Of a stretch of DNA of 64,000 bases, positions 36,726 through 60,772 are shown piece after piece. This DNA comes from Verrucomicrobiota bacterium (lineage in GTDB: Bacteria; Verrucomicrobiota; Verrucomicrobiia; Verrucomicrobiales; Verrucomicrobiaceae): assembly GCA_025360015.1 (NCBI GenBank), contig JANYCZ010000032.1, forward strand, positions 1 to 64,000. Direction: 5' to 3'. The translations under genes were made by a program, and so were the position numbers. Numbering within the stretch: position 1 is the stretch's first letter; each line of letters begins with the position of its first letter. The notes under the pieces were generated by a model. The model saw nothing but the letters and a program-made list of their open reading frames with translations. It had not been told where the DNA came from and searched no databases.

Positions 36726-38603
36726 TCACTTCCCCTCAAAACGCTTCCTCAATTCGTTGAAGTAGCGGCGCACCTGCTCGCGTCGTGCAGGCGGTAATGC
36801 CGCCTCATCCAGCGCGGATTCTTCCGCCTGGATCGCTTCGAGTGCGGTCTGGGTGGCGGTGCGGGTGGATTGTTCAGTGCGCACGCCGCCTTCGACGCTG
36901 CGCACGGTGCTCTGGCCTTCGCTGTTCTGCTGGGCGCGGACCATGCTTTGATTGTCGGTGTTCTGCTTGGAGGTGGGCGTATTGTTGAGGTCGGCTTTGC
37001 CACTGCCTGGCGGCAGGCCGTTACCGGGCATGGTGAGCATCGGCCCATTGGGCTCAGGCGGCGCGCCATCACCAGTGACAATGACTGTGGGGGCTTTGTC
37101 ATCCGGCTTGGACTCGCTAGGGACGGGGGCGAGCAGCATCGGGCCATCGCCGGGCTGGCCCTGTTTGCCAGCCTGCCCTGGCTGCCCCTGGCCCATGCTC
37201 ATCATGGGTTGCTGCTGCTGGCCCTGCCCTTGTCCATCCTGTGGCTGCTGCTGCTGCATTTGATTTTGCTGTCCGGACTGGCCCGCGCCGGGAGGATTGA
37301 GCATCTGCTGGGCATTTTGCGCCTGCCCGGTCTGCGGCGCACTCTGTTGCCCTTGCTGCTGGGATCCTGACTCACCCTGCCCCGCCTGGCTCATCTGCTG
37401 CATCGCACCATTGCTGCCATCCTGCTGCCCGGCGATGTTGCTGCCCGAATCACGCAACTGCTGGGCAAGCTGCTGCAGTTCCTGGCGCGACTGCTCGCGC
37501 AGCGCGAGGTCACGCAGCTTGTCGGCGAGCTTTTGGAATTCTTCGCCCGCAGCCGCCGGCTGGCCTTGCTGCATCTGATCCCCTGCGGCGAGAACGTTCT
37601 GGGCCACGGCGCGCTTGCGATCTTCCTGATCTGCCTGCTGCTGCGCTTCCTTGAGCGTTTCGTTCATGCGCTCCTTTGCCTGCGCACCGAGCTGCGGTGA
37701 TTTGAGCTGGCTGGCGAGCGCTTCCGCAGCCTGCGAGGCAGCCTGCGCATTCTTTGCCGCCACGGCGTCGCCGAGATCTGCGGTGTCGGCATGCTGACGC
37801 AGTGCCTCAATGAGTTTTTCCGAGGCCCAGGGTTCCTTGCCGCTGCCCAGTTCCTCCGCGAGTTTCTCCGCTTCACGCGCACGCTTTTCCAATTCGGCCA
37901 GCACATCGCGCGCGTCCTTGCCACCCGCGTTGGCGAGGTCTGCGGCGGTTTTTTGCAGCTTCTGTTTCAAATCATCGACCTGCTTGGACTCTTCATCCTT
38001 GAGACCCGCCAGCTTCTTTTTTTCCCAATCGGTCTGCGCCAGTTTCTTCGCCTCCTCGGCGGCTTTGCGCGTCATTTCCGCGTCCATCGTCACCACCTCT
38101 GAAGGCGGGGCGGTGACGATGCTGATGAAGCTGCCGACAATCGCAATGAGCAGCGGCACGGCCAGCCAGCGGTCCGGTCGCAACGGCAAATCGTGTGTCA
38201 TATTTCGCAATGCCGGGGCCAAAACCTCGCGCTGCGCGTCGATGTGAGCGCGGGCCTCCTCCCCTTCTTCGGCGTGCTGCTCAAACCACCAGGCGGAAGC
38301 GAAAGCCTCCCGCCGTCCCGCCGCCTGATCCCACAAGGCCAGCGCGCTGAATTCTCCGGGCCTCCGCCACCACACGTAGCCGAGACAACCGGCCAGCCAC
38401 AAAGCCAGGCCGAGCCAGGGAGAGAGCACCGCGCTGAATCCACGCAGCATGGCCAGCATGAGCAGTACCAGAACCAGCGAGACGGGAATCAGCGTCATGC
38501 GCAGCACCGCCAGCCAGCGCCGCAGCACCACCCACACCTGCACACGCTGTGCCACCAGGGCAAAGTCGGAGCTGGGCGCTGTTATCTGGCTCATGTGTGG
38601 CAT
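36726..38603 (-). CDS. Q-rich coiled-coil membrane protein
   Basis: 625 residues. Two N-terminal helices (LIPVSLVLVLLMLAMLRGF, PWLGLALWLAGCLGYVWW) and a third at about 149-167 (WLAVPLLIAIVGSFISIV). About 175-390 form a long charged coiled coil (AAEEAKKLAQTDWEKKKLAG, ELEKRAREAEKLAEELGSGK). About 390-520 are extremely Gln/Gly/Pro-rich low complexity, and a short C-terminal helix ends RRYFNELRKRFEGK. Proteins of this make-up accompany MoxR/BatA-type clusters in Planctomycetes and Verrucomicrobia, but none of those genes is here. An alternative start at 38594 would shorten it by three residues. Function unknown. Confidence 0.7.
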   Translation of the reverse strand: MPHMSQITAPSSDFALVAQRVQVWVVLRRWLAVLRMTLIPVSLVLVLLMLAMLRGFSAVLSPWLGLALWLAGCLGYVWWRRPGEFSALALWDQAAGRREAFASAWWFEQHAEEGEEARAHIDAQREVLAPALRNMTHDLPLRPDRWLAVPLLIAIVGSFISIVTAPPSEVVTMDAEMTRKAAEEAKKLAQTDWEKKKLAGLKDEESKQVDDLKQKLQKTAADLANAGGKDARDVLAELEKRAREAEKLAEELGSGKEPWASEKLIEALRQHADTADLGDAVAAKNAQAASQAAEALASQLKSPQLGAQAKERMNETLKEAQQQADQEDRKRAVAQNVLAAGDQMQQGQPAAAGEEFQKLADKLRDLALREQSRQELQQLAQQLRDSGSNIAGQQDGSNGAMQQMSQAGQGESGSQQQGQQSAPQTGQAQNAQQMLNPPGAGQSGQQNQMQQQQPQDGQGQGQQQQPMMSMGQGQPGQAGKQGQPGDGPMLLAPVPSESKPDDKAPTVIVTGDGAPPEPNGPMLTMPGNGLPPGSGKADLNNTPTSKQNTDNQSMVRAQQNSEGQSTVRSVEGGVRTEQSTRTATQTALEAIQAEESALDEAALPPARREQVRRYFNELRKRFEGK

Positions 38604-38649: not shown

Positions 38650-41016
38650 TCAATCCCGCGCCTTGAGCACGCCCACCATGTCCAGCTGCCGCAGCATGCG
38701 GCTGACGACGATGAAGGAGGCGCAGGAGGCGGTGGCAACGACGAGGACGGCCATGGTGTAGGTGTGCAGGCTGATGACGAGGGGCATGCGAATGGTCTCA
38801 GTGCTGACTTTGGCAATGATGAAGGTGGCCAGCCCCTTGCCAAACAGCAGGCCGGCGGGGATGGCGGTGCCGATGAGCAGGAGCAGCTCTCCCAGCAGCA
38901 CGCCAGCAATCTCGCGCTGGGTGAAGCCGACGACGCGGAGGGTGGCGAGGTCACGGCTGCGTTCGGACAGCGCGATGCGGGCGCTGTTGTACACGACGCC
39001 AAAGGCCACCACGATGGCGAGCACGAAGTAGAGCTTGCGCAGGATGCCGATGCTCTGCCCGGTGGTACTGCGGAAGGATTCGAGCTGGTCCTTTTTCACC
39101 AGCGTGACGGCGACACGCGGCGTGTCCTTCACCTCGCGCATGAATTCGCCCCAGCGAGACTGGTCCACGGTCATGTAGGCCCCGCTTACGGTGTCCCCTT
39201 CATGCATGAGGCGGTGCAGCGCATGGATGTCCATGAAGGCATTCACTCCGGCGAAGTCTTCCATGAAGCCGCGAATGGGCACGCCCACCGTGGCGCGCCT
39301 TCCTTCCAATGCCTCCACCTGCACCACATCGCCAATGAGTGCGCCAAGGGTCTTGCCGAGCTGCGCGGACATGACGATGCCCTCCTCCGGCAGCACGATG
39401 AGGCGGCGCTGCGCGTCCAACAGGCGGTTCAGGTCCGCATCACGCGGCAGACCGGTAATCGCAAGCTTGCGCGAGTGGTGGCCGTAGCGGATGCGCGCCT
39501 GCACCGCGCGCACGGGCTCGGCACGCAGCACACCCGGGAGCTGCTCCAGGTTGTGCAGCGCATCGCCTGAGCCGGGCTCGGCAAAAAACACCACCACGTC
39601 CTGCCGCTGCACGTCGTTCCACTGGTAGGTCAGCATGTAGTCCACGCTGTCAGCCATGGATCCCGGCAGCACCATCAGCCCTGTGGCCAAGGCGAGACCA
39701 AAGACGGTAAAGAGCGCCTGCACCGGCCGCCGCTCAATGTTTCTCAAGGCCATGCGCAGCGCCGGGCCGCTGCCCCGGGTGAGCCCCATGCGCTCCAGCA
39801 TGGAGGGCTTGAAATCCGCTGGCGGCTCCGGCCGCATGGCCTCGGCAGGGGGCAGCTTCACCGCCATCCACACCACTGTGATGACGCCGAGAAACGCGGC
39901 CACCGTGCTGACGACCAGCGCCGTGCCCAGCGCGCTGTAGTCCATGCGAAAGTTCAGCGCGGGAAAGCGAAAAAACAGATCGTAAACACGCACCAGCCCA
40001 CCGCCCATCCAGCGGCCCACCGCGCCGCCGATCAGCGTGCCCAGCACCACGATGACCAGCGCATAGTTCAGGTAGTGCCTGCCCACCTGCCAGGAGGAGT
40101 AGCCCAGTGCTTTGAGCTGCGCGATCTGCTCCCGCTGCAGCCGCACCAGCCGCGCCAGCACGGCATTCACCATGAAGGCCGCCACGCTGAGAAACACCAC
40201 GGGGTAGGCCACGGACAGCGCGCGCACCACGCGCAGCTCGTCATCCAGCCGTTGCGCGCTGTTGTGCTCCCGCCGCGTGTAGGCCCCCTGCGCGCCGTAG
40301 TCCAGCAGCAGGCGGTCCATCTCCGTCAACACCGGCCCGGCCTCAGCACCAGGTGAAAGATCTACGCAGATGTCATTGAAAGCACCGTCCAGATTGTAAG
40401 GCACGGCGATGGCCTGGTAGTTCATCCAGAAGACACCGTAGCGTTTGTTGTCCGGCAGCGTCTGGCCGGGCCGCGCCTCAAACACAAATTCAGGCGAAAG
40501 CCCGATGCCACAGACAATGATCGTGTCGCGATGCCCATTGATGATGGCCACGAGGCTGTCGCCAATTTGAAGCTTGTTCGCCAGCGCAAAGGATTCGCTC
40601 ACCACCGCCTGCTGTCTTTCATTGGTGAGCGGCAGCCGGCCCTGCCGGATGAAGACCTGGTTCAATGTCTGCGGCCGTCCCTCCGGCAATGACACCAGAT
40701 GCGCGGATGCAGGCTCCGTCATACCCGCCAGGTCCAACGTGGCATCCACCACCACCCGCGCCTCCACCGCTGCGACGCCGGGGATCTCCGCGACGCGGTC
40801 GGCCAGCGAGAGCGGCGCTCGTTTCAATGAGGCAAACACATCTGCCAGGCGATAGCGCTGGTAGTAGGCATCCCGCGTGCTTTCCAGCGTCAGCAGGATG
40901 CTGCGCGTCATGATCATCATCGCCAGTCCGCAGGCCATGACGAGACTCACCGCCACGATCTGCCCCTTCATGCGACCGATGTCGCGGAAGAGTTTCAAGT
41001 CGAGGGGGGTGAGCAT
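38650..41016 (-). CDS. FtsX/MacB-type ABC permease, tandem copy 2
   Basis: 788 residues. First helix IVAVSLVMACGLAMMIMTRS, then a large periplasmic domain, then three clustered helices about 265-390 (VAYPVVFLSVAAFMVNAVLA, YALVIVVLGTLIGGAVGRWM), a second periplasmic domain and three C-terminal helices (LYFVLAIVVAFGVVYNSARI, VLLGELLLLIGTAIPAGLLF). Two FtsX domains are present, as in the long DUF214/YbjP-like permeases. EIAGVLLGELL and the 'RDLATLRVVGFTQREI' loop are typical. It is a paralogue of the next gene, with identical length. An ATPase and adaptor would be expected but are not in the window. Confidence 0.88.
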   Translation of the reverse strand: MLTPLDLKLFRDIGRMKGQIVAVSLVMACGLAMMIMTRSILLTLESTRDAYYQRYRLADVFASLKRAPLSLADRVAEIPGVAAVEARVVVDATLDLAGMTEPASAHLVSLPEGRPQTLNQVFIRQGRLPLTNERQQAVVSESFALANKLQIGDSLVAIINGHRDTIIVCGIGLSPEFVFEARPGQTLPDNKRYGVFWMNYQAIAVPYNLDGAFNDICVDLSPGAEAGPVLTEMDRLLLDYGAQGAYTRREHNSAQRLDDELRVVRALSVAYPVVFLSVAAFMVNAVLARLVRLQREQIAQLKALGYSSWQVGRHYLNYALVIVVLGTLIGGAVGRWMGGGLVRVYDLFFRFPALNFRMDYSALGTALVVSTVAAFLGVITVVWMAVKLPPAEAMRPEPPADFKPSMLERMGLTRGSGPALRMALRNIERRPVQALFTVFGLALATGLMVLPGSMADSVDYMLTYQWNDVQRQDVVVFFAEPGSGDALHNLEQLPGVLRAEPVRAVQARIRYGHHSRKLAITGLPRDADLNRLLDAQRRLIVLPEEGIVMSAQLGKTLGALIGDVVQVEALEGRRATVGVPIRGFMEDFAGVNAFMDIHALHRLMHEGDTVSGAYMTVDQSRWGEFMREVKDTPRVAVTLVKKDQLESFRSTTGQSIGILRKLYFVLAIVVAFGVVYNSARIALSERSRDLATLRVVGFTQREIAGVLLGELLLLIGTAIPAGLLFGKGLATFIIAKVSTETIRMPLVISLHTYTMAVLVVATASCASFIVVSRMLRQLDMVGVLKARD

Positions 41017-41035: not shown

Positions 41036-43402
41036 TCAGTCGCGCGCCTTGAGCACGCTCACCAGGTCCAGCTTGTTGAGCATGAAGCCGACCATGGCAA
41101 ATGAGGCCCCCGTGGCCGCCAGCACCACCAGCACGGAGCTGGCATAGGTGCTGGGATTGATGTGCTGCGGCAGACGCACGGTTTCATTGCTGACAGCGCC
41201 AATCACATACGAGGCCAGAACATTCCCAAACACCAGGCCCAGTGGCAGGGCCACCAGCACGAGCAGCGAGAGCTCTCCCAGCAGCACGCCGGCGATTTCG
41301 CGCTTGGTCAGCCCCACCACACGCAGCGTGGCCAGATCACGACCGCGCTCTGAAAGGGCGATGCGGGCGCTGTTGTACACCACCCCGAATGCCACGATGA
41401 CCGCCATCCACAAAAACAGCTCGCGCAGCGTGCCGATGCTCCGCCCCGTGGACGCACGAAAGGCAGCCAACTGATCCTTCTTGGCGCTGGCAAATTCGAT
41501 TTTCGGCTGGTCTTTCACTTCACGCATGAATTCGTCCCAACGCCCGGAATCGACGCTCATAAAAGCGCCTGTCATCGTCTCACTCTCCCGCAGCAGGCGG
41601 CGCACGGCGTCGATGTCCATGTACGCCGCCATGCCGTAGAAGTCAGACATGAAGCCGCTCACCACGATCTCCCGGTGTTCGCAGCGCCCTTCCTGCGTCT
41701 GCACATGGATGGAGTCGCCGATCTTCACCCCCAGCACCTCCGCCAGTTTCTGGGAGACCAGCAGCCCCTCGGCAGGCAGTACGATAGGCCGCCCCTGCAT
41801 GTCCCGCGGACTGACAAGCTTGCTGTTTTTGGCAAACCCCATCACATACAGCCTGCGGGCGTGATGCGCATTGCTCACTGTGGCGAGGAAGCCGCGTATT
41901 GGCTCCACCAGTCTGACACCCGGGAGATGCTCCAGATCATGCTGCGTGCTGCGGGAGGCAGGGTCGCGCATGCTGACGATGACGTCCTGGCGAAAATGAT
42001 CGTTCCATTGGTAGGTCAGCAGGTAGTCCACGCTGTCCGCCAGCGCACCCGGCAGCACCAGCAGGCCGGTGGCCAGAGCCAGTCCGGCGATGGTGAAACA
42101 GGCCTGTGTGGGACGGCGCTCGATATTGCGCAAGGCCATGCGAAATACCAGACCCGCCCCCCGGGTGAAGCCGAGGCGCTCCAGCAGCGAAGGCTTGAAA
42201 TCTGCCGGAGGCTCCGGCCGCATGGCTTCCGCAGGCGAGAGCTTCACTGCCAGCCACACCGCCCCCGCCACCCCCAGCACCGCCGCAGCGACACTGACCA
42301 TGAGAGCCATGACCAGCGCTCTCTGGTCCATCTGAAAATGCAGTTCAGGAAAATGAAACAGCTGCGTGTACACCTGCAGCATCACGCCCCCCAGATACCA
42401 GCCGGCCACGATGCCGACCCCGCTGCCCAGCACGACGATCACCAAGGCATAACTCAAATAATGCCGGCCCACCTGCCAGGAGGTGTAGCCCAGTGCCTTG
42501 AGCTGCGCGATCTGCTCCCGCTGCAGCCGCACCAGACGTGAGATGACCGAGTTCACCATGAAGGCCGCCACGCATAGAAACACCACCGGATACGCGAGAG
42601 AGAGCGCACGTACGATCCGCAGCTCGTCATCCAAACGCTTCGAACTGGAGTGGTCCTTGAGCGCATACGCCCCGACAGCGCCATAAATGACCAGCATCTG
42701 GTCCACCTCCTCGATCACTGCCTGCGGATCTGTGCCAGGAGACAAATCCAGGCTCAGGTCATTGAAGGCGCCATCCAGATCAAACGCGACGGCCAGAGAC
42801 TGGTAGCGCAGCCAGAATACGCCGAAATGCCGGTTGTCAGGCAGTGTCTGACCCGGTGCCGCCTCAAACACAAACTCCGGCGACAGGCCAATGCCGCAGA
42901 TGTCGAGGTGGTCTCGATGCCCGTTTAAAATGGCGGTGATGCGGTCGCCAATCTGCAGCCCATGCGCCAGAGCGAATGCTTCGCTGACCACCGCCTCCCG
43001 CTGCGCACCTGGGTGCGGCAGTCTGCCACGACGCAGGAAGATTTGATTGAGGTTTTGCCTGCCATCATCCGGCAGCGAGACCAGCTGCGCTTTGACCGGC
43101 TCCCGCACGCCGTCCATGTCGAGCAGAGCATTCTCCACCACCCGCAGCTCCACCGTGGCCACCCCTGGAATTTTGCCGAGCCGGTGCTGCAGGGAAAGCG
43201 GGGCGCTTTTCACGTAGCCAAACACATCCGGCATGCGATAGCGCTGGTAGTACGCATCCCGCGTGCTCTCCAGACTGAGAATGATGCTGTTGGCAACGAT
43301 CATCATCGCCACGCCGCAGGCCATGACGAGGCCCGCCACCAGGACCTGGCCCTTCATGCCGCCGATGTCGCGGAGAAGCTTGCGGTCAAGAGTGGTGATC
43401 AT
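41036..43402 (-). CDS. FtsX/MacB-type ABC permease, tandem copy 1
   Basis: 788 residues, collinear with the following gene throughout (SLESTRDAYYQRYRMPDVFG versus TLESTRDAYYQRYRLADVFA; RLVRLQREQIAQLKALGYTS versus RLVRLQREQIAQLKALGYSS). Same layout: N-terminal helix QVLVAGLVMACGVAMMIVAN, two periplasmic domains and two FtsX helix groups. The pair is separated by 19 bp and is probably one transcript reading away from the PKS gene, with which it shares a 143-bp divergent upstream region. Tandem gene duplication is evident. A heteromeric exporter is possible. No ATP-binding subunit is visible. Confidence 0.88.
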   Translation of the reverse strand: MITTLDRKLLRDIGGMKGQVLVAGLVMACGVAMMIVANSIILSLESTRDAYYQRYRMPDVFGYVKSAPLSLQHRLGKIPGVATVELRVVENALLDMDGVREPVKAQLVSLPDDGRQNLNQIFLRRGRLPHPGAQREAVVSEAFALAHGLQIGDRITAILNGHRDHLDICGIGLSPEFVFEAAPGQTLPDNRHFGVFWLRYQSLAVAFDLDGAFNDLSLDLSPGTDPQAVIEEVDQMLVIYGAVGAYALKDHSSSKRLDDELRIVRALSLAYPVVFLCVAAFMVNSVISRLVRLQREQIAQLKALGYTSWQVGRHYLSYALVIVVLGSGVGIVAGWYLGGVMLQVYTQLFHFPELHFQMDQRALVMALMVSVAAAVLGVAGAVWLAVKLSPAEAMRPEPPADFKPSLLERLGFTRGAGLVFRMALRNIERRPTQACFTIAGLALATGLLVLPGALADSVDYLLTYQWNDHFRQDVIVSMRDPASRSTQHDLEHLPGVRLVEPIRGFLATVSNAHHARRLYVMGFAKNSKLVSPRDMQGRPIVLPAEGLLVSQKLAEVLGVKIGDSIHVQTQEGRCEHREIVVSGFMSDFYGMAAYMDIDAVRRLLRESETMTGAFMSVDSGRWDEFMREVKDQPKIEFASAKKDQLAAFRASTGRSIGTLRELFLWMAVIVAFGVVYNSARIALSERGRDLATLRVVGLTKREIAGVLLGELSLLVLVALPLGLVFGNVLASYVIGAVSNETVRLPQHINPSTYASSVLVVLAATGASFAMVGFMLNKLDLVSVLKARD

Positions 43403-43545: not shown

Positions 43546-46500
43546 ATGCCAGAACCCACCGTCGCCGACCCCATCGCCATCATTGGTATTGGCTGCCGCC
43601 TGCCCGGCGGTGCCACCAATGCCGCTTCTTTCTGGCAGATGCTCATGGGTGGGGTGGACGCCATCCGCGAGGTGACGCTGGACCGCTGGGACACCCGCTC
43701 ATATTACGACCCCGAGCAGGGCAAGCCCGGCAAGACCTACTCCAAGTGGGCCGGACTGATCGATGAGATCGACACCTTTGACGCGGGATTTTTCGGCATC
43801 ACGCAGCGCGAGGCCCCCTTCATCGACCCCCAGCAGCGCCTCCTGCTGGAGGCCACTTGGGAGGCGCTCATGGATGCCGGACAGCAGGTGGACATCGTCA
43901 AAGGCGAAGACACGGGCGTGTTTGTGGGCGTCTCCACGCATGACTACGGGGACATCCAGCAGAATGACATGGGGCGTGGCTTGGCCTATCCCCACTCCGC
44001 CACCGGTGTCGCCTCCAGCATCGCCGCGAACCGCATCTCCTACGCGCTGAATTTCCAGGGACCCAGCGTGGCCGTGGACACCGCCTGCTCCTCCTCGATG
44101 GTGGCTGTGCACATGGCCTGCCAGGCGCTGTGGAACAAGGAATGCCACCGCGCCATCGCCGCCGGGGTGAACTGCATCATCAGCCCTTATCCCTTCGTTG
44201 CCTTTTCCAGCATGGGCATGCTGTCACCAGAAGGGCGCTGCAAAGCCTTTGATGCCAGCGCGAATGGCTTCGTCCGTGGCGAAGGCGTCGGTGCTGTGTG
44301 CCTGAAGCCGCTCTCCGTCGCACTGGCGGATGGAGATCCCATCTACGCCGTCATCCGCAGCACGGCGGTGAATCAGGACGGCCGAACCTCCGGGATGACG
44401 GTGCCCAGCCGTGGTTCCCAGCAGGAACTCATCGCCACTGCCTGCCGTCTGGCCGGTGTGGCCCCGCACGAAATCCAGTACGCCGAGGCCCACGGCACCG
44501 GCACCACCATTGGCGATCTCATCGAAGGCAGCGCCCTCGGCACCATCCTGGGGGTTGGTCGCCAGCCTGGAGAAGACTGCCTGCTCGGCTCGGTGAAGAC
44601 AAACATCGGCCATTTGGAGGCTGGCTCAGGCATCGCGGGTCTCATCAAAGTGGCCCTGTGTCTGAAGCACGGCATGGTGCCGCCAAACCTGCATTTCAAA
44701 AATCCAAACCCCTCGCTCAATTTCGAGCGCCTGTGTCTGAAGGTGCCGGTCACCGCCACACCGCTGAAGCAGGATGAGCAGCACCGCATGCTGGCGTGCA
44801 TCAATTCCTTCGGCTTCGGCGGCACCAATGCCCATGCCGTGCTGGAGGCCGCACCCCAGCCAGCGCCACTGGTGCCAGCACCCGCAGGGGATGAACCGGA
44901 GCTCATCCTGCCGCTTTCCGCACGCGGCTCCGACGAGGCCCTGCTGGCCGTGGCTAAGTCATTCCATGCCTACCTGGAGTCAGCGGATGAATCTCTCTCC
45001 CTCCGCGACATCTGCGCCGCTGCCAGCCGCAGGCGCACGCACCATGAGTTTCGCCTCGCAGCAGTCGCCAGCACCCGCGCTGGCATGAGCGCCGCGCTGG
45101 CTGCGTTTCTGAGCGGTGAGCAGGCCCCCGGACTCCACATCGGCCAGCCGGTGAAAAATGCGCGTCTTGTCTTTGTCTTCAGCGGTCAGGGGCCGCAGTG
45201 GTGGGCCATGGGCCGTGAGCTCATGGAGCAGGAGCCCGTCTTTCGCCAGACACTTCAGATCTGCCATGATGAACTGCAGAAGCTCGGCGGCTGCTCGCTC
45301 CTTGATGAACTGCGGCGTGATGAAAAAACCACCCGGCTGAACGAAACGCAGATCGCGCAGACGGCGCTCTTTGCGCTGCAGGTTTCGTTGGCCGCGCTGT
45401 GGCAGTCCTGGGGTGTGCGCCCCTATGCCGTCGTAGGACATAGCATGGGGGAAGTCGCTGCCGCGCATGTGTGCGGTGCGCTGTCTTTGCCCGAAGCCGT
45501 GCGTGTCATCCACCATCGCGGGCGCTGCATGGAGAAGACCCCGCTGCGCGGAAAGATGATCGCCGCCGCACTCACCCGTGCAGAGGCTGAAGCAATCATC
45601 GCGCCCTATGGTGAAAGAGCCTCCCTCGCTGCCGTGAACGGCCCCAAGATGGTTTCCATCTCGGGTGATGGCGATGCGGTGGACGAAATCTTCCAAGCGC
45701 TGGAGCAGCGCGAGCTCTTCGTGCGCTACGTCCCGGTGAACTACGCCTTTCACAGCGCCCACATGGACCCGGTGCGGGATGAACTCGCCAACTCTCTCGC
45801 GGGTCTGCAGCCGCAGGCGGGCAAAGTGAAGATCTATTCCACCGTCACCGGAAAGCTGGCCGACGGCACCGACTACGATGCCGGCTACTGGTGGAAAAAT
45901 GTACGGCAGAGCGTGTTGTTTGCCCCGGCCATTGATGCCGTCATCGCCGCCGGGCAGACGCATTTCCTGGAGATCAGCCCGCACCCGGTGCTGTCCAATT
46001 CCATGACCGAATGCCTCGCGGAGGCAGACGCCATCGGCATGGTGATGCCTTCGCTGCGACGGCAAAAGCCGGAGCGCGCCACCCTGCTGGGCACGCTGGG
46101 CGCTTTGCATGTGAATGGCCATGAGGTGGACTGGACCGCGCTCTACCCGGAGGTCAGCGCGGCGCTGCGTCTGCCAGGCTATCCCTGGCAGAGAGAGCAC
46201 TTCTGGCATGAGCCCGCCTTTTCCATGCGCTTGCGCACGCATCCGCAGCTCAATCCCCTCATCAAGCTGGCGCGGCCAAACATCCACCCCACCTGGGAAA
46301 CTCCGCTGAACAAACACGTGCTGACCTGGCTGAAGGACCACCGTGTGGGCCAGCACCTCATCTTCCCCGGCGCAGGCTATGTGGAGATGGCGCTGGCAGC
46401 CGGTCAGGAACTGCACCCGGACAAGCCGGTGCTGCTCGAAGAACTCGAGATCCACCGCGGCTGCATCCTGCCTGCGGGGGATGACGTCCCGTTGCTGCAG

Positions 46501-49500
46501 ATCTCCTGCGTGACGGAGGAAAACACCTTCGTCATTCAAAGCACCCCCAGCGAGGACCCGCCCAACTGGACACAGCACGTCACAGGGCGCATGCGTGCCG
46601 AGCCCGAGCGCAGACAGCCCGCGCCGTTTGATCTCGCTGCCATCCAACAGCGCTGCGTGGCGGAGATCGATGGCAAAACGTTTTATCAATCGGCCGCCGC
46701 TGCTGAGCTGCACTACGGCCCGCAGTTCCAGGCGCTGACGCATGTGTGGGCGGGGCAGGATGAAGCCCTGGGCCGCATCGAACTGCCCGCCGCTGCTACG
46801 GCAGAGATGGACCGCTACATCGTTCACCCCGCGCTGCTGGACGCCTGCATCCACCCCACCATCGCCATTCCGGCAGACGGTCTCTACCTCCCGGCGCGCA
46901 TGGAGCGCATCCGCTGCTTCTCCCGCCCCGGTGCCAAGGTGTGGGCCTATGTGCGCAGGACGCAGGCGATTGCGAAGAAGATCATCGTCATCGATCTCTT
47001 CATCCTCGATGACGCGGGCACCGTGCTGCTGGAGATCTCCGACTTCCTCTGCAAGCACACCGCCATGAGCAGCGCCCCGGGCTCCGGCGCGCAGGCAGAC
47101 TGGCTCTACCAGTCCGAGTGGCAGCTCAAGCCGCTCCCCGCCTCCCGCGCACGCACGCCTGCAGACTGGCTACCAGACAATACCACGCTGGCCGCACAGC
47201 TCCGCGAGAGCGCCGCCCGCTTCAGCACCGCGCTCGGCATGAATGCGCGCTATCAGGAGTGGGAGCCACGCTTCCTCCAGCTCTGCCGCGCTTCGATTCT
47301 CACCGTGCTCAAACAGCTCGGCTGGCGTACCAAACCGGACGAGAACGTCACGCTGCCCGCATTGCTGAAGCGCCTCAAAGTGCAGCCCGCACATGAGCGC
47401 TTCCTGCACCGCCTGCTCACCCAGCTGGAGCCCGACGGCTGGCTGCAAGCCCAGCCATCTGCTGAAGTGCCGGGCTGGACCGTCACGGCCAAACCGGCCG
47501 CACTGAACCGCGACAAACTCTGGCAGGACCTCGTCTTCCACTTCCCCGCCTTTCATCCCGAGCTCATCCTGCTAGACCGCTGCACCGACGGCCTCGCCGA
47601 TTTGCTGCGCGGCAAGTGCGACTCCGCAGCCCTGCTCTCCGCCAACATGCTGGAGCACTTCCAGGCGGGCTCCGTTTTCACCCGCGTGTACAATCACCTC
47701 ATCGGAGAAGCCGTCGCCGCTGCGCTGGTGCAGCTTCCCGAAGGCCGGCGTGTGCGCATCCTTGAGATCGGCGCAGGCACAGGCGGTGTCACCGCCAGCG
47801 TGCTGCCACGTCTGCCCAACGCAGGCGTTGAGTACTATTTCACGGATGTCTCGGACCGCCACTTTGATCAGGCCGGGAAGAAATTCGGCGACTACCCTGC
47901 CGTGCAGTATCGCGTGCTCGATCTCGATCACCCGCCCGCGGACCAAGGCTTCGCGGATGAGCGTTTCGACCTCGTCATCGTCTCCAATGCGCTGTCATTG
48001 ACGCAGGATGTGCAGCGGTCGCTGCAGCACTTGCGCCAGTTGCTCGCCTCCAGCAGCCTGCTTCTGGCCCTGGAAATCGAATCTCCCACACCCTGGCATG
48101 ATCTGGTAGGCGGCACGGATGCGCGCTGGTGGCATTTTCAGGACATCGCCCTGCGCGCGAATCATCCGCTGCTGCCGTCCGCCGACTGGCTTCAGCTCTT
48201 CACCGCTGCCGGCTTCGCCACCGTGGAAGCCGTGGCCGATGCCAGCAATCACAGCCAGACCGGACAAGTCGTCCTCCTCGCACGCGGCCCCGAACTGCCG
48301 CAGCTTGTTGCCTCCTTCGATGCGGCCCCCGCAGCGCCCGGCCTCTGGCTGCTCTTTGCCGATCAGCAGGGCCTCGCCGCATCACTCGCGGATGAGTTGC
48401 GCCAGCGTGGCGACACCTGCCTTGTGGTCACTGCCGCAGACACCTTCACGCGCATCTCTGCCGATGAAGTGCAACTCCGCGCCGCAGCAGTGGAGGACTA
48501 CACCCGCCTGCTCTTCGAACTGCCGCCATTCACCTCCCTGCGCGGTGTCATCCATCTCTGGAGTCTCGATGCCCCCGCAGGCACGGACATCACGACAGCG
48601 GCACTCGCAATGTCTCAGACACTCGTCTGCCACAGCTCGCTCCATCTGGTGCAGGCGCTGAATGCCGCAGGCCATGACACTCTGCCAGGCCTGTGGTTCG
48701 TCACCCGTGGCGCACAGCCTGCCGGTGAAAAAACTTCCACACTCTCCCTCACGCAGTCGCCCCTGCACGGCATGGCCCGCGTGATCATGAGCGAGTGCCC
48801 AGACCTGCACTGCCGCACCATCGATCTCGATGCCGCTGCCAGTGCAGATGACACCGCGATCCTCCTCAACGAACTGCTGCATGCCGACGCGGAAGCCGAG
48901 ATCGCCTGGCGCGGTGAAGCACGCTATGCCCACCGCTTGATGCACGCTTCGCTGGATCATCTAGCGCAGTCATCCACGTCTTCCTTCACCGCCGAGCAAT
49001 GCTTCCGCCTCGAATCCGCCAAGCCTGGCTCACTGGACAAGCTGGTGTTTCGCGCGAAGCCACGCCGCGCTCCCGGCCGCAATGAAGTCGAGATCGAAAT
49101 CTGCGCCGCCGCGCTGAATTTCCGCGATGTGATGAAGGCGCTCGGCATCTACCCTGCCGAAGCCGCCGATGCCATGCTGCTGGGTGATGAATGCGCCGGG
49201 CGCATCGTCCGCGTGGGTGCGGGCATCACGCAGTTCAAAGCCGGAGACGAAGTCATGGCGCTGGCCGCCGGGTGCTTCGGCACGCATGTCACCACCGTGG
49301 AGCATGCCGTATTGTTAAAGCCCGCGCACCTCACCATGGAAGAAGCGGCCACGATGATGGTCACTTACTTGACCGCCTCCTACGCGCTCTCGCATCAGGG
49401 TCGCATGTCCAAGGGCGAACGCGTGCTCATCCACGCTGCCACAGGTGGCGTGGGTCAGGCGGCGGTGCGCATCGCGAAGGCCACCGGGGCGGAGATTTTT

Positions 49501-52359
49501 GCCACCGCTGGCAGCGCGGAGAAGCGTGCGTTCTTGAGAAAAATCGGCGTGGAGCATGTGCTCGACTCACGCACGCTCGCCTTTGCCGGCGAGGTCATGC
49601 GCATCACGAATGACGAGGGCGTCGATCTCGTGCTTAATTCACTCGCAGGCGAGGCCATCCACCAAAGCCTCTCGCTGCTGCGCCAGTACGGCCGCTTCCT
49701 CGAAATCGGCAAGCGCGACATCTACGGCAACACCAAGGTGGGGCTCTTCCCCTTCCGCAAAAATCTCTCCTACCACGCCATCGACCTCGGGCACGCGCTC
49801 GATCCGCGCAATTCGAAGCCCCTCATGGGCAGCCTTAAAAAGCTGTTCACCACGCGCAAGCTCCCTGCCCTGCCCTACCGTGCGTTTGCCTTGGCGGATG
49901 CCGCCAATGCCTTCCGTTACATCACGCAGGCACGGCAGATTGGCAAAGTGGTGCTCACTGTGGCAGATGCCCAAGTCTCGCTCAGCGCTGAGGCCCAAGA
50001 GGCCGCGCTCCAATTGAATGCCGAAGCGACGTATCTTGTCGCCGGTGGCCTCGGCGGCTTCGGTCTCGCCATGTCGCAGTGGTTGGTGGTCCAGGGCGCA
50101 CGCCATCTTGTGCTCTCCAGCCGCAGCGGTGCCTCCACCGATGAAGCCCGTGCGGGTGTGGCCGCCATGCAGGCGGCGGGCGCTACCGTCACTGTGATCC
50201 CGTCCGATGTGAGCGATCCGGCCAGCGTGACCGCGCTGCTGCAAGAAATCGCACAGTCGCATCCGCCTCTGCGGGGTGTCTTCCACGTCGCTATGGTTCT
50301 CGATGATGGACTGATCTCCCAGCTCGATGCAGAGCGTTTCACCAAGGTCACCACACCCAAGATCAATGGCGCATGGAATTTGCATGTGCAGACCCAAGGC
50401 CTCGCGCTGGATCACTTCGTCATGTTCTCCTCGGTGGCCTCCATCATCGGCAGTCCGGGCCAGGCGAACTACGCCGCCGCGAATGCTTTCCTCGATGCTC
50501 TCGCAAACCACCGCCGCAGTCAGGGCCTCCCCGCGCTGACCATCAACTGGGGCGTCATGGCTGGTGTCGGCTACGTGGCGCGGCACAAGAAACTGGAGGA
50601 GCACTTTGCCCGCATCGGCTGGTCGGGCATCACGCCTGCCGAGTCCCTGCCCATCCTCGGCCGCCTCATGCAGCAGCCCGCCATCAGCCAGATGATGGTC
50701 TCGCGCATCGACTGGTCCAAGTGGGCCGCAGTGACTCCCGCCATCATCGCGACTCCACGCTATGCCGAGCTGACCACGGAGGATGCGCTCCGGCAGCATC
50801 AGTCCGACGGTGCCAACTGGCTGCGCGAGGCCGTGCTCAGCGCGGCGCCTGAAGAGCAACTGGCGATCCTCGACACCTTCCTGCGCGAGCAGGTGGGCAA
50901 GATCCTCCGCGTCTCCCCCGCCAAGATCGACTCCAAACGTCCGCTGAACGAAATCGGCATCGATTCGCTGATGGCGGTCGAGCTCATCCATCAGATCGAA
51001 AGCCAGACCGGCATCGCCATTCCCACCGGGCAGCTCATGGGTGGAACACCCACCGTGCAGAAGCTCGCCGAAATTCTGCTCACCGCCCTGACCGGCGGCA
51101 AAGCCGAATACGCCGGCGCTGACACACTGCAGGAACCTGCGGCGGCGTCTGCTGACGACTTTGTGCATGACTCCCATCTGGGGCGGTGGGACATTCCTTT
51201 TGCCAGCGGCCCTGTCCCTGACTCACAGATTCAGCAGCCGCAGATCATCTTCCTCACCGGCGTACTCGAGTTCTTCGGTGCCTTCCTGCTGCGCGATCTT
51301 TTGCAGCATACCCGGGCCGGGATTCACTGCCTCATCAGCGCCGCAGATACCGCCACTGCCACGCAGCAGATCGAGGCGCATCTGACACACTACGCCTGCT
51401 GGGACGAGTCCTTCCGCCCGCGCATCGTACCCGTCCTCGGCAGCCTCGCGCAGCCCTTGCTGGGGCTTGAGCCCGTCGCATTCGATCTGCTCGCCGCTAC
51501 CGTGGATGCGATCTACCACACGGCGGCGCACATCAATCACATCGCCGCGTATGGGCAGCTCAAGACGATCAACGTGAACGGCTCGGTGGAGATCCTCCGT
51601 CTGGCTGCGCAGAGCAGGCTCAAGCCCGTGCACTACCTTTCCAGCGCCACGGTTCTGTCCGCCAGCAACACCGCCGATGACAGACCGCTGCGTGAAGACG
51701 ACCCCCTGCCTGAGCATGCCAAACTCATGGTGGGCTACAGCCAGAGCCGCTGGGTCGCGGAGCAATTGTTTGTGCAGGCCCGCGCGCACGGCCTGCCAGT
51801 CAATGTGTACCGCCCGGGCCTTCTCGTGGGTGATGACCAGACCGGTGTCTGCCCCAGCGACAACATCATCTGGCTCTTTCTCAAAACCTGCATCGACGCC
51901 GGGGTGGGCCCGGATGCAGCCTACAGCAGCCTCTTCACTCCGGTCGATTTCGTGGCGACCGCGCTCGTGCGGCTCTCACTCAACCTTGCCGGTTTGGGGC
52001 GCAACTACCACCTCATCAATCCCGCCGCTCCCAGCTTCCGCGAAGTGCTGGAGCTGGCGCGCACCTGCGGTTACCCTATTCGTTTGGTGCCGGAGGCTCA
52101 ATGGGAAGCCACGCTTTCCGGCGGCAGTCTCAATGTTCAGCAAAACCCGGTGGCCGCCTACCAATTGTTCATTCCACGCGAGGTGCTGTCCACCTTCGTG
52201 GAGGAGCAGTCGGCGGAATTCTGCCGCAACGCGCTGCACGATCTGGAAGGCACCGGCGTCAACTGCCCACCCATTGATCAGGCGCGCATGCAGCTCTACC
52301 TCCAGCATTTTGCCGGCACTGGTTTTCTGCCCCCAGCAGGCGTTCCTTCCGGCACTTGA
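43546..52359 (+). CDS. Type I polyketide synthase, KS-AT-DH-MT-psiKR-ER-KR-ACP-reductase
   Basis: 2,937 residues. KS about 8-430 (Cys181 in DTACSSS, His316, His356). AT about 540-860 (Ser633 in GHSMGE; YAFHS box, suggesting malonyl-CoA). DH about 900-1190 (His932 in LKDHRVGQH, Asp1099 in HPALLDACIH). C-methyltransferase about 1360-1560 (LEIGAGTGG at 1406). Structural KR half about 1575-1790. ER about 1826-2140 (TGGVGQA at 1966). KR about 2160-2345 (GGLGGFG, Tyr2309; LDD box, B-type). ACP about 2440-2510 (Ser2474 in GIDSLMAVEL). Thioester reductase about 2560-2930. One module with a complete reductive loop and methylation suggests an iterative enzyme making a reduced, methyl-branched chain released reductively. 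The reductase motifs are altered (TGVLEFFG, YSQSR). No phosphopantetheinyl transferase gene is nearby. Confidence 0.93.
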   Translation: MPEPTVADPIAIIGIGCRLPGGATNAASFWQMLMGGVDAIREVTLDRWDTRSYYDPEQGKPGKTYSKWAGLIDEIDTFDAGFFGITQREAPFIDPQQRLLLEATWEALMDAGQQVDIVKGEDTGVFVGVSTHDYGDIQQNDMGRGLAYPHSATGVASSIAANRISYALNFQGPSVAVDTACSSSMVAVHMACQALWNKECHRAIAAGVNCIISPYPFVAFSSMGMLSPEGRCKAFDASANGFVRGEGVGAVCLKPLSVALADGDPIYAVIRSTAVNQDGRTSGMTVPSRGSQQELIATACRLAGVAPHEIQYAEAHGTGTTIGDLIEGSALGTILGVGRQPGEDCLLGSVKTNIGHLEAGSGIAGLIKVALCLKHGMVPPNLHFKNPNPSLNFERLCLKVPVTATPLKQDEQHRMLACINSFGFGGTNAHAVLEAAPQPAPLVPAPAGDEPELILPLSARGSDEALLAVAKSFHAYLESADESLSLRDICAAASRRRTHHEFRLAAVASTRAGMSAALAAFLSGEQAPGLHIGQPVKNARLVFVFSGQGPQWWAMGRELMEQEPVFRQTLQICHDELQKLGGCSLLDELRRDEKTTRLNETQIAQTALFALQVSLAALWQSWGVRPYAVVGHSMGEVAAAHVCGALSLPEAVRVIHHRGRCMEKTPLRGKMIAAALTRAEAEAIIAPYGERASLAAVNGPKMVSISGDGDAVDEIFQALEQRELFVRYVPVNYAFHSAHMDPVRDELANSLAGLQPQAGKVKIYSTVTGKLADGTDYDAGYWWKNVRQSVLFAPAIDAVIAAGQTHFLEISPHPVLSNSMTECLAEADAIGMVMPSLRRQKPERATLLGTLGALHVNGHEVDWTALYPEVSAALRLPGYPWQREHFWHEPAFSMRLRTHPQLNPLIKLARPNIHPTWETPLNKHVLTWLKDHRVGQHLIFPGAGYVEMALAAGQELHPDKPVLLEELEIHRGCILPAGDDVPLLQISCVTEENTFVIQSTPSEDPPNWTQHVTGRMRAEPERRQPAPFDLAAIQQRCVAEIDGKTFYQSAAAAELHYGPQFQALTHVWAGQDEALGRIELPAAATAEMDRYIVHPALLDACIHPTIAIPADGLYLPARMERIRCFSRPGAKVWAYVRRTQAIAKKIIVIDLFILDDAGTVLLEISDFLCKHTAMSSAPGSGAQADWLYQSEWQLKPLPASRARTPADWLPDNTTLAAQLRESAARFSTALGMNARYQEWEPRFLQLCRASILTVLKQLGWRTKPDENVTLPALLKRLKVQPAHERFLHRLLTQLEPDGWLQAQPSAEVPGWTVTAKPAALNRDKLWQDLVFHFPAFHPELILLDRCTDGLADLLRGKCDSAALLSANMLEHFQAGSVFTRVYNHLIGEAVAAALVQLPEGRRVRILEIGAGTGGVTASVLPRLPNAGVEYYFTDVSDRHFDQAGKKFGDYPAVQYRVLDLDHPPADQGFADERFDLVIVSNALSLTQDVQRSLQHLRQLLASSSLLLALEIESPTPWHDLVGGTDARWWHFQDIALRANHPLLPSADWLQLFTAAGFATVEAVADASNHSQTGQVVLLARGPELPQLVASFDAAPAAPGLWLLFADQQGLAASLADELRQRGDTCLVVTAADTFTRISADEVQLRAAAVEDYTRLLFELPPFTSLRGVIHLWSLDAPAGTDITTAALAMSQTLVCHSSLHLVQALNAAGHDTLPGLWFVTRGAQPAGEKTSTLSLTQSPLHGMARVIMSECPDLHCRTIDLDAAASADDTAILLNELLHADAEAEIAWRGEARYAHRLMHASLDHLAQSSTSSFTAEQCFRLESAKPGSLDKLVFRAKPRRAPGRNEVEIEICAAALNFRDVMKALGIYPAEAADAMLLGDECAGRIVRVGAGITQFKAGDEVMALAAGCFGTHVTTVEHAVLLKPAHLTMEEAATMMVTYLTASYALSHQGRMSKGERVLIHAATGGVGQAAVRIAKATGAEIFATAGSAEKRAFLRKIGVEHVLDSRTLAFAGEVMRITNDEGVDLVLNSLAGEAIHQSLSLLRQYGRFLEIGKRDIYGNTKVGLFPFRKNLSYHAIDLGHALDPRNSKPLMGSLKKLFTTRKLPALPYRAFALADAANAFRYITQARQIGKVVLTVADAQVSLSAEAQEAALQLNAEATYLVAGGLGGFGLAMSQWLVVQGARHLVLSSRSGASTDEARAGVAAMQAAGATVTVIPSDVSDPASVTALLQEIAQSHPPLRGVFHVAMVLDDGLISQLDAERFTKVTTPKINGAWNLHVQTQGLALDHFVMFSSVASIIGSPGQANYAAANAFLDALANHRRSQGLPALTINWGVMAGVGYVARHKKLEEHFARIGWSGITPAESLPILGRLMQQPAISQMMVSRIDWSKWAAVTPAIIATPRYAELTTEDALRQHQSDGANWLREAVLSAAPEEQLAILDTFLREQVGKILRVSPAKIDSKRPLNEIGIDSLMAVELIHQIESQTGIAIPTGQLMGGTPTVQKLAEILLTALTGGKAEYAGADTLQEPAAASADDFVHDSHLGRWDIPFASGPVPDSQIQQPQIIFLTGVLEFFGAFLLRDLLQHTRAGIHCLISAADTATATQQIEAHLTHYACWDESFRPRIVPVLGSLAQPLLGLEPVAFDLLAATVDAIYHTAAHINHIAAYGQLKTINVNGSVEILRLAAQSRLKPVHYLSSATVLSASNTADDRPLREDDPLPEHAKLMVGYSQSRWVAEQLFVQARAHGLPVNVYRPGLLVGDDQTGVCPSDNIIWLFLKTCIDAGVGPDAAYSSLFTPVDFVATALVRLSLNLAGLGRNYHLINPAAPSFREVLELARTCGYPIRLVPEAQWEATLSGGSLNVQQNPVAAYQLFIPREVLSTFVEEQSAEFCRNALHDLEGTGVNCPPIDQARMQLYLQHFAGTGFLPPAGVPSGT

Positions 52360-55780: not shown

Positions 55781-55861
55781 CATCGCGCGTTCAAGGCGCC
55801 CAGCCCTGCTACCCGCTTCCCTTCTTGATACTTGGAACGCGAAGTGCGACACACCGGCGGC

Positions 55862-56893
55862 ATGAACGAGATCACCAAACGCAAAAACTTCATCCCCGTC
55901 ACGGATGAACTGATCGCCTACCTTGATCAGTTCGGGCGCTGCTACTCGCTGCCGACGACGTATGACGAACTGCGCAACTTTTCCGAAAGCTACCCCCTCT
56001 TCGACAAGGAAGGCAACGCCACCTACTGGAGCAGCGTGCTCTACCCGCGCGAGCTGCAGCAGGAGATCTACCCCAAGCTCACCAGCATTTACTCCCAGCT
56101 CCGCACCGGAGACTTCCACGCCGTGCCGCATCTCTACGTCGAGCGCGTGGACTACTGCGAATTTGGCAACTCACGCCCGTTCCGTGTCCGCGTGGTGAAC
56201 CAGTACAATGACAACTACGACCACTTTTACGTGAAGACGGCGGACGCCTCCCGTGTCTATGGCCTCGAACTTGAGCACCTGCTCTCGCCGAATCGTATCA
56301 ACTATCTCATGCACCGCGGCGGCACCCTGGTGGAGGAACACATCGCCGGCATTCCAGGAGACGCCTTCATCCGCGACTACCTCCAGCGCCCCGACTTCAA
56401 CGGCGTCCGCCTCGCCAAGGAGTTCGTCAAATTCAGCGAACGCTGCTTCATCCGCCTGCTAGGTGACATGCGCAGCTACAACTACGTCGTGGACATGACC
56501 CCCGACTTTGAGGAAGTGCAGTACCGCGTCCGCGCCATCGACTTTGACCAGCAGAGCTATGAAGGCCGCAAAAGCCTGTACCTCCCGCAGTTCTTCAAGG
56601 AGAACAATCCCGTCGTCCAGCTCTGTGCCTCCTGCCTCAATTCCCCCACCATGAAGCAGTACCAGGAGGAGGAGCGCAGCCTCATCTCCCGCCGTTACCT
56701 CTCCGAGCACCAGCGCATCACCGCCCTGCTGCACTGCATGAAAAACAATGCGGTCGAGCCCTTTGAAAAGGTCGTGCAGCTCCGTGCTGAGCTGGGCGAG
56801 TTCCACGGGACCCACTTGTTCGACGTCTGCAAATCCATGGGGGAAATCGTCGAGCGCAACCTCGACCTCATGCTGGGGCGGCACCTGGAATAA
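55862..56893 (+). CDS. Unknown protein with kinase-fold-like catalytic motifs
   Basis: 343 residues from ATG 55862, soluble, no signal. It is not a family I can name. Two segments look like the catalytic core of kinase/aminoglycoside-phosphotransferase folds: FIRLLGDMRSYNYVVDMTPD (compare HGDLHxxNhhh, Asp then Asn five residues on) and YRVRAIDFDQQSYEGRKSLY (compare hhxIDFD). An N-terminal region (SLPTTYDELRNFSESYPLFD) and helical C-terminus (LLHCMKNNAVEPFEKVVQLR) flank them. No glycine-rich loop is obvious. The kinase-like reading is inference. It is 81 bp downstream of the sensor kinase on the same strand. Confidence 0.6.
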   Translation: MNEITKRKNFIPVTDELIAYLDQFGRCYSLPTTYDELRNFSESYPLFDKEGNATYWSSVLYPRELQQEIYPKLTSIYSQLRTGDFHAVPHLYVERVDYCEFGNSRPFRVRVVNQYNDNYDHFYVKTADASRVYGLELEHLLSPNRINYLMHRGGTLVEEHIAGIPGDAFIRDYLQRPDFNGVRLAKEFVKFSERCFIRLLGDMRSYNYVVDMTPDFEEVQYRVRAIDFDQQSYEGRKSLYLPQFFKENNPVVQLCASCLNSPTMKQYQEEERSLISRRYLSEHQRITALLHCMKNNAVEPFEKVVQLRAELGEFHGTHLFDVCKSMGEIVERNLDLMLGRHLE

Positions 56894-59770: not shown

Positions 59771-60658
59771 TCACGCATACGTCACCGGGGTGCCGGTGCT
59801 GTTGGCCAGCACCTTGAAGCGCTTTGTCAGCTCCTGAGTGAGCTTGCCGGGCGTGCCGTCGCCGATGGAGCGGCGATCATATTTCACAGCCGGGATGACC
59901 TCTGCAGCCGTCCCCGTGAGGAAACATTCGTCGGCAGTATAAATATCATAACGAGTCATGACCGTCTCGGCGCAAGGCTGGCCCATCTCCGCGAGGATCT
60001 CCATGACCGCCCGGCGGGTGATGCCGTCCAGCGCGCCCGAGGAAATCGGTGGAGTGCTGACCTTGCCGTTCTTCACGATGAAGACGTTGTCGCCCGTGCA
60101 TTCGGAGACAAAGCCCTGGTCGTTGAGCATGATGCCTTCGTCGCACCCGGCCTGCAAACACTCGATCTTGGCCATGATGTTGTTGAGGTAGTTCAAGCTC
60201 TTGACCTGCGGGCTCAGAGCTGCCGAGTTCGGACGGCGGGTGCCGCAGGTGATGAGCTCCAGCCCCTTCTCATAACGCTCCGCCGGATACAGCGTGATGC
60301 TGCTGGCGATGACGATGACGCTGGCCTTCGGGCACTGGTAGGGATTCAAGCCCAGCGAGCCCACGCCACGCGTGATGACGAGGCGGATGTAGCCGTCGCG
60401 CAGATTGTTGGCCGCCACCGTGTCGAGCGTGGCTTTTTCCATTTCCTCGAAGGAAATCGGGATGGTCAGGCAGATCGCCTTCGCGCAGTCGTAGAGGCGG
60501 TGCAGATGCTCCGTCAGGCGAAACACGCGGCCATTGTAAATACGGATACCTTCAAATACGCCATCACCATACAGCAGGCCGTGGTCGAAGACGGAGATCT
60601 TCGCCTCGGATTCAGGAACGAGCTTGCCATCAAGGTAAATGAGGAGATTTGCAGACAT
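59771..60658 (-). CDS. ilvE: Branched-chain amino acid aminotransferase
   Basis: 295 residues from ATG 60656-60658. Fold-type IV PLP enzyme: LLIYLDGKLVPESEAKISVF, DHGLLYGDGVFEGIRIYNG, LVITRGVGSLGLNP, the PLP-Lys region SPQVKSLNYLNNIMAK, DEGIMLNDQGFVSECTGDNV and ECFLTGTAAEVIPAVKYD. It transaminates Leu, Ile and Val with 2-oxoglutarate. The sequence is closest to the short archaeal/bacterial IlvE type; a D-amino-acid aminotransferase is possible but less likely. The frame is open to 61669, but the extension is antisense to the aldolase gene. It is divergent from the aldolase gene across 114 bp. Confidence 0.92.
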   Translation of the reverse strand: MSANLLIYLDGKLVPESEAKISVFDHGLLYGDGVFEGIRIYNGRVFRLTEHLHRLYDCAKAICLTIPISFEEMEKATLDTVAANNLRDGYIRLVITRGVGSLGLNPYQCPKASVIVIASSITLYPAERYEKGLELITCGTRRPNSAALSPQVKSLNYLNNIMAKIECLQAGCDEGIMLNDQGFVSECTGDNVFIVKNGKVSTPPISSGALDGITRRAVMEILAEMGQPCAETVMTRYDIYTADECFLTGTAAEVIPAVKYDRRSIGDGTPGKLTQELTKRFKVLANSTGTPVTYA

Positions 60659-60772
60659 GGGGCGGGTAGCATCCACAGCCCGCAGGCTTTTGCAAGCTCT
60701 GGCAATGTGCTTGCGCCACGCTGATTCGCGCTCATTCTGAGCGCCCCGTTTAACCCGCACCCCAGAAATACC

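Follow-up and report, generated by a model that had tools for sequence, protein, structure and literature searches.

The gene at positions 43546..52359 (+) of the window (the whole 64,000-nucleotide stretch of verrucomicrobial DNA analyzed here) encodes a polyketide synthase (PKS) that carries both a C-methyltransferase (MT) domain and a terminal thioester-reductase (TR) domain, and it poses the question of what such a protein makes and how the product leaves it. The original prediction had read the locus as a one-gene pathway of fungal type, yielding a saturated, possibly methyl-branched chain released as aldehyde or alcohol.

Domain anatomy and relationships of the synthase

The synthase gene is one intact ORF with an ATG start, was correctly drawn, and specifies 2937 aa with the architecture KS-AT-DH-MT-psiKR-ER-KR-ACP-TR by ORF, Pfam, and NCBIfam analysis (KS-AT-DH-MT0-psiKR-ER-KR-ACP-TR0 if the two domains predicted to be disabled are marked). 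All domains lie on the forward strand. Pfam matches were found for the KS (43567..44847; ketoacyl-synt, 5e-93), AT (45169..46125; Acyl_transf_1, 2e-81), DH (46240..47058; PKS_DH_N and PS-DH), ER (49033..49962; ADH_N/ADH_zinc_N), KR (50008..50580; 1e-68), and ACP (50863..51081; PP-binding, 4e-13). A residue check located C181, H316, and H356 in the KS; S633 and H736 in the AT, together with the motifs GHSMG and YAFH; H932 and D1099 in the DH; LNFRD and GGVGQAA in the ER; K2272, S2296, Y2309, N2313, and an LDD motif in the KR; and S2474 in the ACP. Malonyl-type specificity of the AT is presumed from its signature motifs. Between the DH and the ER lie the MT domain, with a helical N-terminal part (47197..48270; Methyltransf_12, 2e-15; HTH_51, 3e-5, under its cut-off), and a structural pseudo-KR assigned from domain order and a weak PF21394 match (48343..48945; 4e-4, under its cut-off); in CurJ-type modules, the MT is likewise placed between DH and psiKR. 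The TR domain (51235..52335) matches NAD_binding_4 (2e-50) and TIGR01746 (NCBIfam; 270 bits, cut-off 213) and has an extended-SDR fold. The ORF, the Pfam matches, and the active-site residues, present throughout the KS-AT-DH-(MT)-ER-KR-ACP chain except in the MT, confirm that one protein constitutes a fully reducing type I PKS and that it has the catalytic residues originally listed for KS, AT, DH, KR, and ACP. That list had omitted the MT and the TR, the two domains that fail. As had also been proposed, no thioesterase or loading domain occurs among the 25 Pfam families listed.

Since the window contains no KS besides that of this single module, the module would be used iteratively. In the 6.6-Mb genome (79 contigs) there is one other long KS-bearing frame, of 2583 codons, on contig C18. 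Two genes exceed the Pfam cut-off for the PPTase family, and one of these shares the synthase's contig. The nearest named contigs among the matches listed in a scan of the GTDB collection were Prosthecobacter and Verrucomicrobiaceae MAGs. Scans of the window with Rfam at gathering thresholds and for tRNAs were empty.

The domain order had been put forward as fungal. Fungal highly reducing PKSs have the order KS-AT-DH-MT-psiKR-ER-KR-ACP, and fungal HR-PKS and PKS-NRPS proteins such as LovB and psoA share the KS-to-ACP order of the window synthase. Using the region from MT to ACP as query, we scanned the GTDB collection and fetched the best 80 of at least 536 confirmed stretches, a sample chosen by similarity, and tabulated architectures with home-made profiles built from this analysis's own sequences. 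A full KS-AT-DH-MT-ER-KR-ACP set in one frame was found in 64 of these best 80 bacterial loci, spread over 13 phyla: 43 loci from Verrucomicrobiota, 4 from Cyanobacteriota, 3 from Planctomycetota, 2 each from Acidobacteriota, Pseudomonadota, and Bacteroidota, and 1 each from seven more phyla, with one candidate-division KSB1 locus also among them. A TR directly after the ACP was seen in 5 of the 64 complete loci of this best-80 sample, all from the window synthase's clade.

The KS points the same way. Against solved structures, its best single-KS matches were bacterial (CurL, 447 bits; PikA1, 435; MAS, 409), followed by fungal LovB (365), Dictyostelium pks16 (344), and fungal psoA (335); 7zma tops the list only through the summing of two KS domains. 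In a KS tree (7 duplicates dropped), 82 of 84 fetched rows, the window KS included, stood apart from the CurL, MAS, DEBS, PikA, and trans-AT KS domains (branch support 97/89). This placement outside an ordinary modular clade agrees with what had been expected, but it is a weak test, with rows fetched as relatives and with references that are few, long-branched, and in no case fungal. The two outliers were L111, which joined CurL, and L119, which fell among the references. MAS, a single long-branch row that joined DEBS and was flagged, lies outside the 82-row group. Verrucomicrobiota, Planctomycetota, and Lentisphaerota are all represented in the clade around the synthase, which is bacterial. 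As judged from these loci and KS scores, the domain order is not specially fungal. Acquisition of a fungal gene by transfer, which has the common domain order and nothing more in its favor, was rejected as extremely improbable: the order is widespread in bacterial loci (64 of the best 80 of at least 536), the KS scores higher to bacterial structures than to LovB or psoA, and the gene sits within a bacterial clade, in trees built without fungal KS rows. Beyond these KS scores, the window synthase differs from LovB and psoA in its C-terminal TR and in an MT predicted to be dead. The best whole-chain PDB match is mycocerosic acid synthase (9d2z). That enzyme is a single-module reducing lipid synthase without C-MT and TR, and its KS, on the long MAS branch, was not joined to the window KS in the tree.

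Altered residues in the methyltransferase and reductase domains

The C-MT domain, METHYLTRANSFERASE, looks folded yet disarmed on its predicted model and alignments. The model (pLDDT 88) matches the C-MT of CurJ with a TM of 0.90, so a PKS C-MT fold is predicted, in line with the domain call first made. PKS C-MTs use a His-Glu catalytic dyad (PMC9821293). CurJ, representing the cis-AT modular C-MT modules, keeps the catalytic His, whereas in our alignment the window synthase has S1484 (47995..47997) at that position; the dyad thus lacks its His. The His is replaced by Ser or Ala in all 12 orthologues of the genus (10 distinct rows plus G470 and G012), which were found in 12 of 48 genomes. Among 94 MT rows, 73 carry the His; the 21 without it comprise 15 clade rows (duplicates included) and 6 other degenerate MTs, so that the residue is retained in 73 of 79 non-clade rows. 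Further, 34 columns are near-invariant among the 73 MTs that carry the His, and 7 of these are lost in 10/10 clade rows, one of the seven as a gap; the comparison set excludes the six His-less non-clade rows, and 5 duplicates were dropped from the count. Counting against a dead MT, the window copy has an intact SAM motif I and keeps the Glu. Of the four sister synthases, L140, L085, and L086 have a decayed MT and L043 has none, from which we conclude that the loss of methylation probably predates this genus. The absence of the His in 12/12 orthologues speaks against the C-methylation originally proposed and strongly suggests that the synthase's own MT adds no methyl branches.

The TR domain shows a comparable pattern. 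Nine clade TRs were readable (eight full genes and the G012 fragment), and they were compared with outside TRs, MxaA and 8v1x among them; these 29 distinct sequences are not a census, and 5 duplicates were dropped from the TR set, with 3 more removed for the column count. Of 36 columns near-invariant in the outside TRs, the clade wholly keeps 28, partly keeps 5, and has lost exactly 3 in 9/9 sequences, none of them lost in any of the 29 outside TRs. The first is the middle Gly of TGxxGxxG at position 2575, replaced by Glu or Asp (E2575 in the window, 51268..51270). The second is the NADPH-site Arg at 2598, 20 residues past the third Gly, replaced by Ser, Gly, Lys, or Asp (S2598, 51337..51339). 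The third is the Lys of YxxxK at 2735, replaced by Arg (R2735, 51748..51750). Ser2699 and Tyr2731 are retained, so that the Ser/Thr-Tyr-Lys triad is broken at its Lys alone. In a carboxylic acid reductase, activity was drastically cut by Ala substitutions at the first two Gly and abolished by Ala at the YxxxK Lys, and an Arg about 20 residues past the third Gly is presumed to be the basic residue for NADPH (PMC5826065). The window TR thus belongs with the MxaA terminal reductase (4u7w/4w4t), its best fold match, and with the TIGR01746 reductases by family match, and differs from them in the replaced cofactor Gly and Arg and catalytic Lys; its model is of moderate quality (pLDDT 71, pTM 0.77; best TM 0.71 at rmsd 7).

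From these columns, we predict that the TR is unable to use NADPH and probably unable to reduce. As a counterpoint, Lys to Arg is a conservative change, and neither the Ser nor the Tyr has been replaced; the missing Arg, taken by itself, could also mean a switch to NADH. The reductive release to aldehyde or alcohol first envisaged is not borne out, with three cofactor or catalytic residues lost in 9/9 readable TRs and the whole domain absent in one genome. In that genome, G011, the synthase occupies the same FtsX junction described below, and its frame stops after the ACP. A split or frame-shifted TR was considered for G011 and rejected: the frame ends just past the ACP, and tblastn found no TR in the 19.9-kb stretch. 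In G021 and G470, the synthase is cut by contig ends and the TR region falls outside the sequence.

The clade TRs, L043, and L140 form one group in the TR tree (98/87), with L043 on a long branch. Because this grouping agrees with the synthase tree (SH-aLRT 98), the fusion of TR to PKS is probably old. G011 falls beside G008 in the KS tree (100/89) and is basal in a four-domain tree (excluding branch, SH-aLRT 94); since the sister TRs fall in the same TR clade, its missing domain is read as a loss. The three changes are restricted to this genus among the TRs compared. Two of the four sister synthases, L140 and L043, have an intact TR, and L085 and L086 have none. L140 (genome G298), from another verrucomicrobial family, has the same KS-to-TR order, a decayed MT, and a TR of the same clade; in contrast to the window synthase, all three TR residues are intact. 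The intact TR of L140 and L043 and the altered one here make a natural pair for asking how a release domain is disarmed or repurposed. Both relatives (L140:1649-10372 and L043:8187-15728) are PKSs of other verrucomicrobial families.

We then asked how strongly each domain is constrained, averaging pairwise dN/dS among seven orthologues (21 pairs; 20 for psiKR). Values were 0.08 for KS, 0.10 for AT, 0.07 for ER, 0.08 for KR, and 0.11 for ACP; they were 0.17 for DH, 0.15 for MT, 0.20 for psiKR, and 0.20 for TR, all approximate because dS is near or above 1. The MT and TR appear on these rates to be held by selection, loosely, as is the structural psiKR. A value of 0.20 for the TR signifies purifying selection, which suggests that this domain does something. 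The DH is equally loose with intact catalytic residues, so a raised rate is not proof of a dead domain. Similarly, the MT/KS ratio of pN/pS is 1.25 (0.183/0.147) in four His-bearing paralogous synthases and 2.0 (0.260/0.131) here; the DH/KS ratio shifts alike, from 1.1 in the paralogues to 2.2 here. By this measure, rates alone do not suffice to call the MT dead.

A permease copy linked to the synthase

Divergent from the PKS and sharing its upstream region lies FtsX1 (41036..43402, -), a duplicated FtsX/MacB_PCD permease that is 61% identical to its neighbor FtsX2 (38650..41016, -). Across 35 genus genomes searched, the FtsX1 copy was present in 11/11 synthase-bearing genomes (split across contigs in G031) and in 0/24 others at ≥72% identity (Fisher value, 2.4e-9, relatedness ignored); two of the 24 synthase-less genomes had no FtsX match whatsoever at 1e-100. 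In G470, outside the 35-genome set, FtsX1 and the synthase are both present. FtsX2, the left border of the island, has orthologues also in genus-mates without the PKS. In one of these, G033, it adjoins the orthologue of the gene at 55832..56893 (+), which has no Pfam or NCBIfam match and forms the island's right border. Where both borders are visible (the window, L031, L034, and L035), FtsX1 and the PKS sit between FtsX2 and the orthologue of the 55832 gene; in G001 and G030, FtsX2 lies some kilobases further away. A one-gene pathway, as first supposed, is hard to reconcile with a permease copy found only with the synthase in the genus set. We rejected the permease as a chance neighbor, the copy being tied to the PKS (11/11 versus 0/24); the link may reflect shared descent of one island. 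An FtsX/MacB-type permease that handles hydrophobic molecules is known from YbbAP-TesA (PMC12646458). FtsX1 had no PDB sequence match at E 1e-3, and no ABC ATPase was found among the neighboring ORFs scanned. A bacterial reducing PKS tied to its own FtsX-type permease copy represents a candidate lipid-export unit in Verrucomicrobiota.

Other genes of the island vary. Of the 8 TR-bearing loci with a visible downstream side, 4 have a fatty acid desaturase between the synthase gene and the right border (one a partial match); the window itself has none. A PAS histidine kinase at 52571, also between the PKS and the right border, occurs in the window only, of 19 stretches compared. Convergent ORFs of 356-471 aa beside four PKS genes were rejected as partners: they overlie, on the opposite strand, the orthologue of the 55832 gene. 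Past FtsX2, the large ORFs at 36726-38603, 32762-35041, and 30353-32683 (all -) matched nothing in Pfam (E 1e-4) or NCBIfam (E 0.01). Elsewhere in the window, a 632-aa frame at 59771-61669 (-) encodes a branched-chain aminotransferase in residues 341-629; its first 340 residues may be an over-extension or another domain.

Release of the acyl chain and related synthases

Taking these observations together, we favor, with fair confidence, a bacterial iterative reducing synthase that makes an unbranched acyl chain, with a silent MT, non-reductive release, and possible export. In this proposal, one AT would both load and extend, and the beta-carbon would pass through KR, DH, and ER to give an unbranched, largely saturated acyl chain on the synthase's own ACP. 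The built-in C-MT, its dyad without the His, would serve as a folded, silent spacer. The altered TR, keeping Ser and Tyr, would be unable to hold or use NADPH, and there is good reason to think that release is not reductive. The chain would leave at the acid level (a lactone, an ester, or the free acid), released either by the altered TR without a cofactor or through a partner in trans. The acyl product would then probably be handled by the divergently encoded FtsX-type permease, and in some relatives it may be desaturated. A lipid-like product, as originally suggested, is plausible.

Two readings of the TR are versions of this preferred explanation, so that their odds overlap with it, and the choice between a release helper and a remnant is about even. 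The TR could be a remnant or scaffold, with release or transfer by a separate enzyme or by hydrolysis, a reading to which we give somewhat less than an even chance. It accords with G011, where the TR was lost and the remaining synthase kept, with a substitution rate like that of the structural psiKR, and with the omicsynin synthetase, in which an R-domain knock-out still gave C-terminal acids (PMC12783407); however, the domain is kept in 9/9 other orthologues in which its place is visible, and charge is conserved at two of the three changed sites. Slightly less probable, in our estimate, is that the TR has turned into a new kind of release enzyme that needs no cofactor (a hydrolase, lactonase, or C-C cyclase), with a role like that of fungal R* domains reached through different changes. 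The acidic residue at the old Gly and the Arg at the old Lys, each in 9/9, would fit such an enzyme, as would the 28 of 36 near-invariant columns wholly kept and the dN/dS of 0.20. The Dieckmann R* domains of fungi (CpaS, equisetin, and tenellin) offer a precedent, being likewise reductase-like terminal domains predicted to be non-reducing, but in known R* domains the Tyr is replaced, and CpaS retains a GXXG/SXXG motif (PMC3202784 and PMC8949500), whereas the window TR keeps Y2731 and has lost the Gly and the NADPH site. Moreover, the window synthase tethers no amino acid, a fully reduced chain is not predicted to carry a second carbonyl, and G011 lives without the domain.

A more specific proposal, which we offer as tentative and rather unlikely, is that in one Prosthecobacter-level lineage an anciently fused TR became a cofactor-free release or transfer domain by three fixed changes, all at its cofactor and lysine positions, with the adjacent, duplicated FtsX permease helping it to deliver an unbranched lipid to the envelope. 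If true, R*-like domains would have arisen by two separate routes, and the intact TR of the sister lineage would provide a natural control.

Active C-methylation with reductive release, giving a methyl-branched fatty alcohol or aldehyde, is improbable as a whole, and a methyl branch and aldehyde or alcohol release are each unlikely. The domain profiles do match, the TR Ser and Tyr and the MT Glu and SAM motif are kept in the window copy, and both domains are under purifying selection. Against this stand the loss of the MT His in 12/12, the loss of the TR Gly, Arg, and Lys in 9/9, and the missing TR of G011. A domain-based prediction would describe a methyl-branched alcohol or aldehyde synthase where the residue pattern says neither, and both features are best removed from the predicted product. 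In genome mining, the active sites of MT and TR need to be checked.

Reducing type I PKSs that end in a TR-family domain are a known kind of enzyme. What appears to be new, from the residues compared, is that MT and TR are both disarmed and that the TR is unlike fungal R* (PMC3202784 and PMC8949500). In the literature covered, with most subscription journals outside that coverage, we found no report of such a synthase, in Verrucomicrobia or elsewhere; the papers retrieved on highly reducing synthases of bacteria and on fusions to thioester reductases were mostly fungal.

The fetched loci also contained other assemblies around the same KS-to-ACP core. Single-protein PKS-NRPSs of ∼4000 aa (KS-AT-DH-MT-ER-KR-ACP-C-A), resembling fungal PKS-NRPS hybrids, were found in Verrucomicrobiota and one planctomycete. 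They make up 15 of the 64 complete loci in the best 80 of at least 536 (L063, L067, L073-L076, L081, L087, L105, L107, L110, L113, L115, L121, and L128), to which L037-L041 are added, two of these from the same genomes; L037-L041 keep the MT His, and L037 has a second carrier domain at its end. A different arrangement occurs on contig C18 of the window's own genome (L029) and in L044-L048, where a second synthase, running from KS to ACP with no release domain, is followed by a stand-alone NRPS condensation-domain gene; L044 also has desaturase, ABC/MacB/LolA-like, Asn synthase, and amidase genes. The C18 and L044-L048 loci look like an acyl-transfer lipid pathway. A stand-alone C gene was present in 19 of the 64 complete loci (again of the best 80 of at least 536). 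Finally, a 3461-aa planctomycete protein (L070:6353) combines KS-AT-DH-MT-ER-KR-ACP-C-TR; no A domain was found in it with the home-made profile, and its condensation domain stands right before an intact TR.
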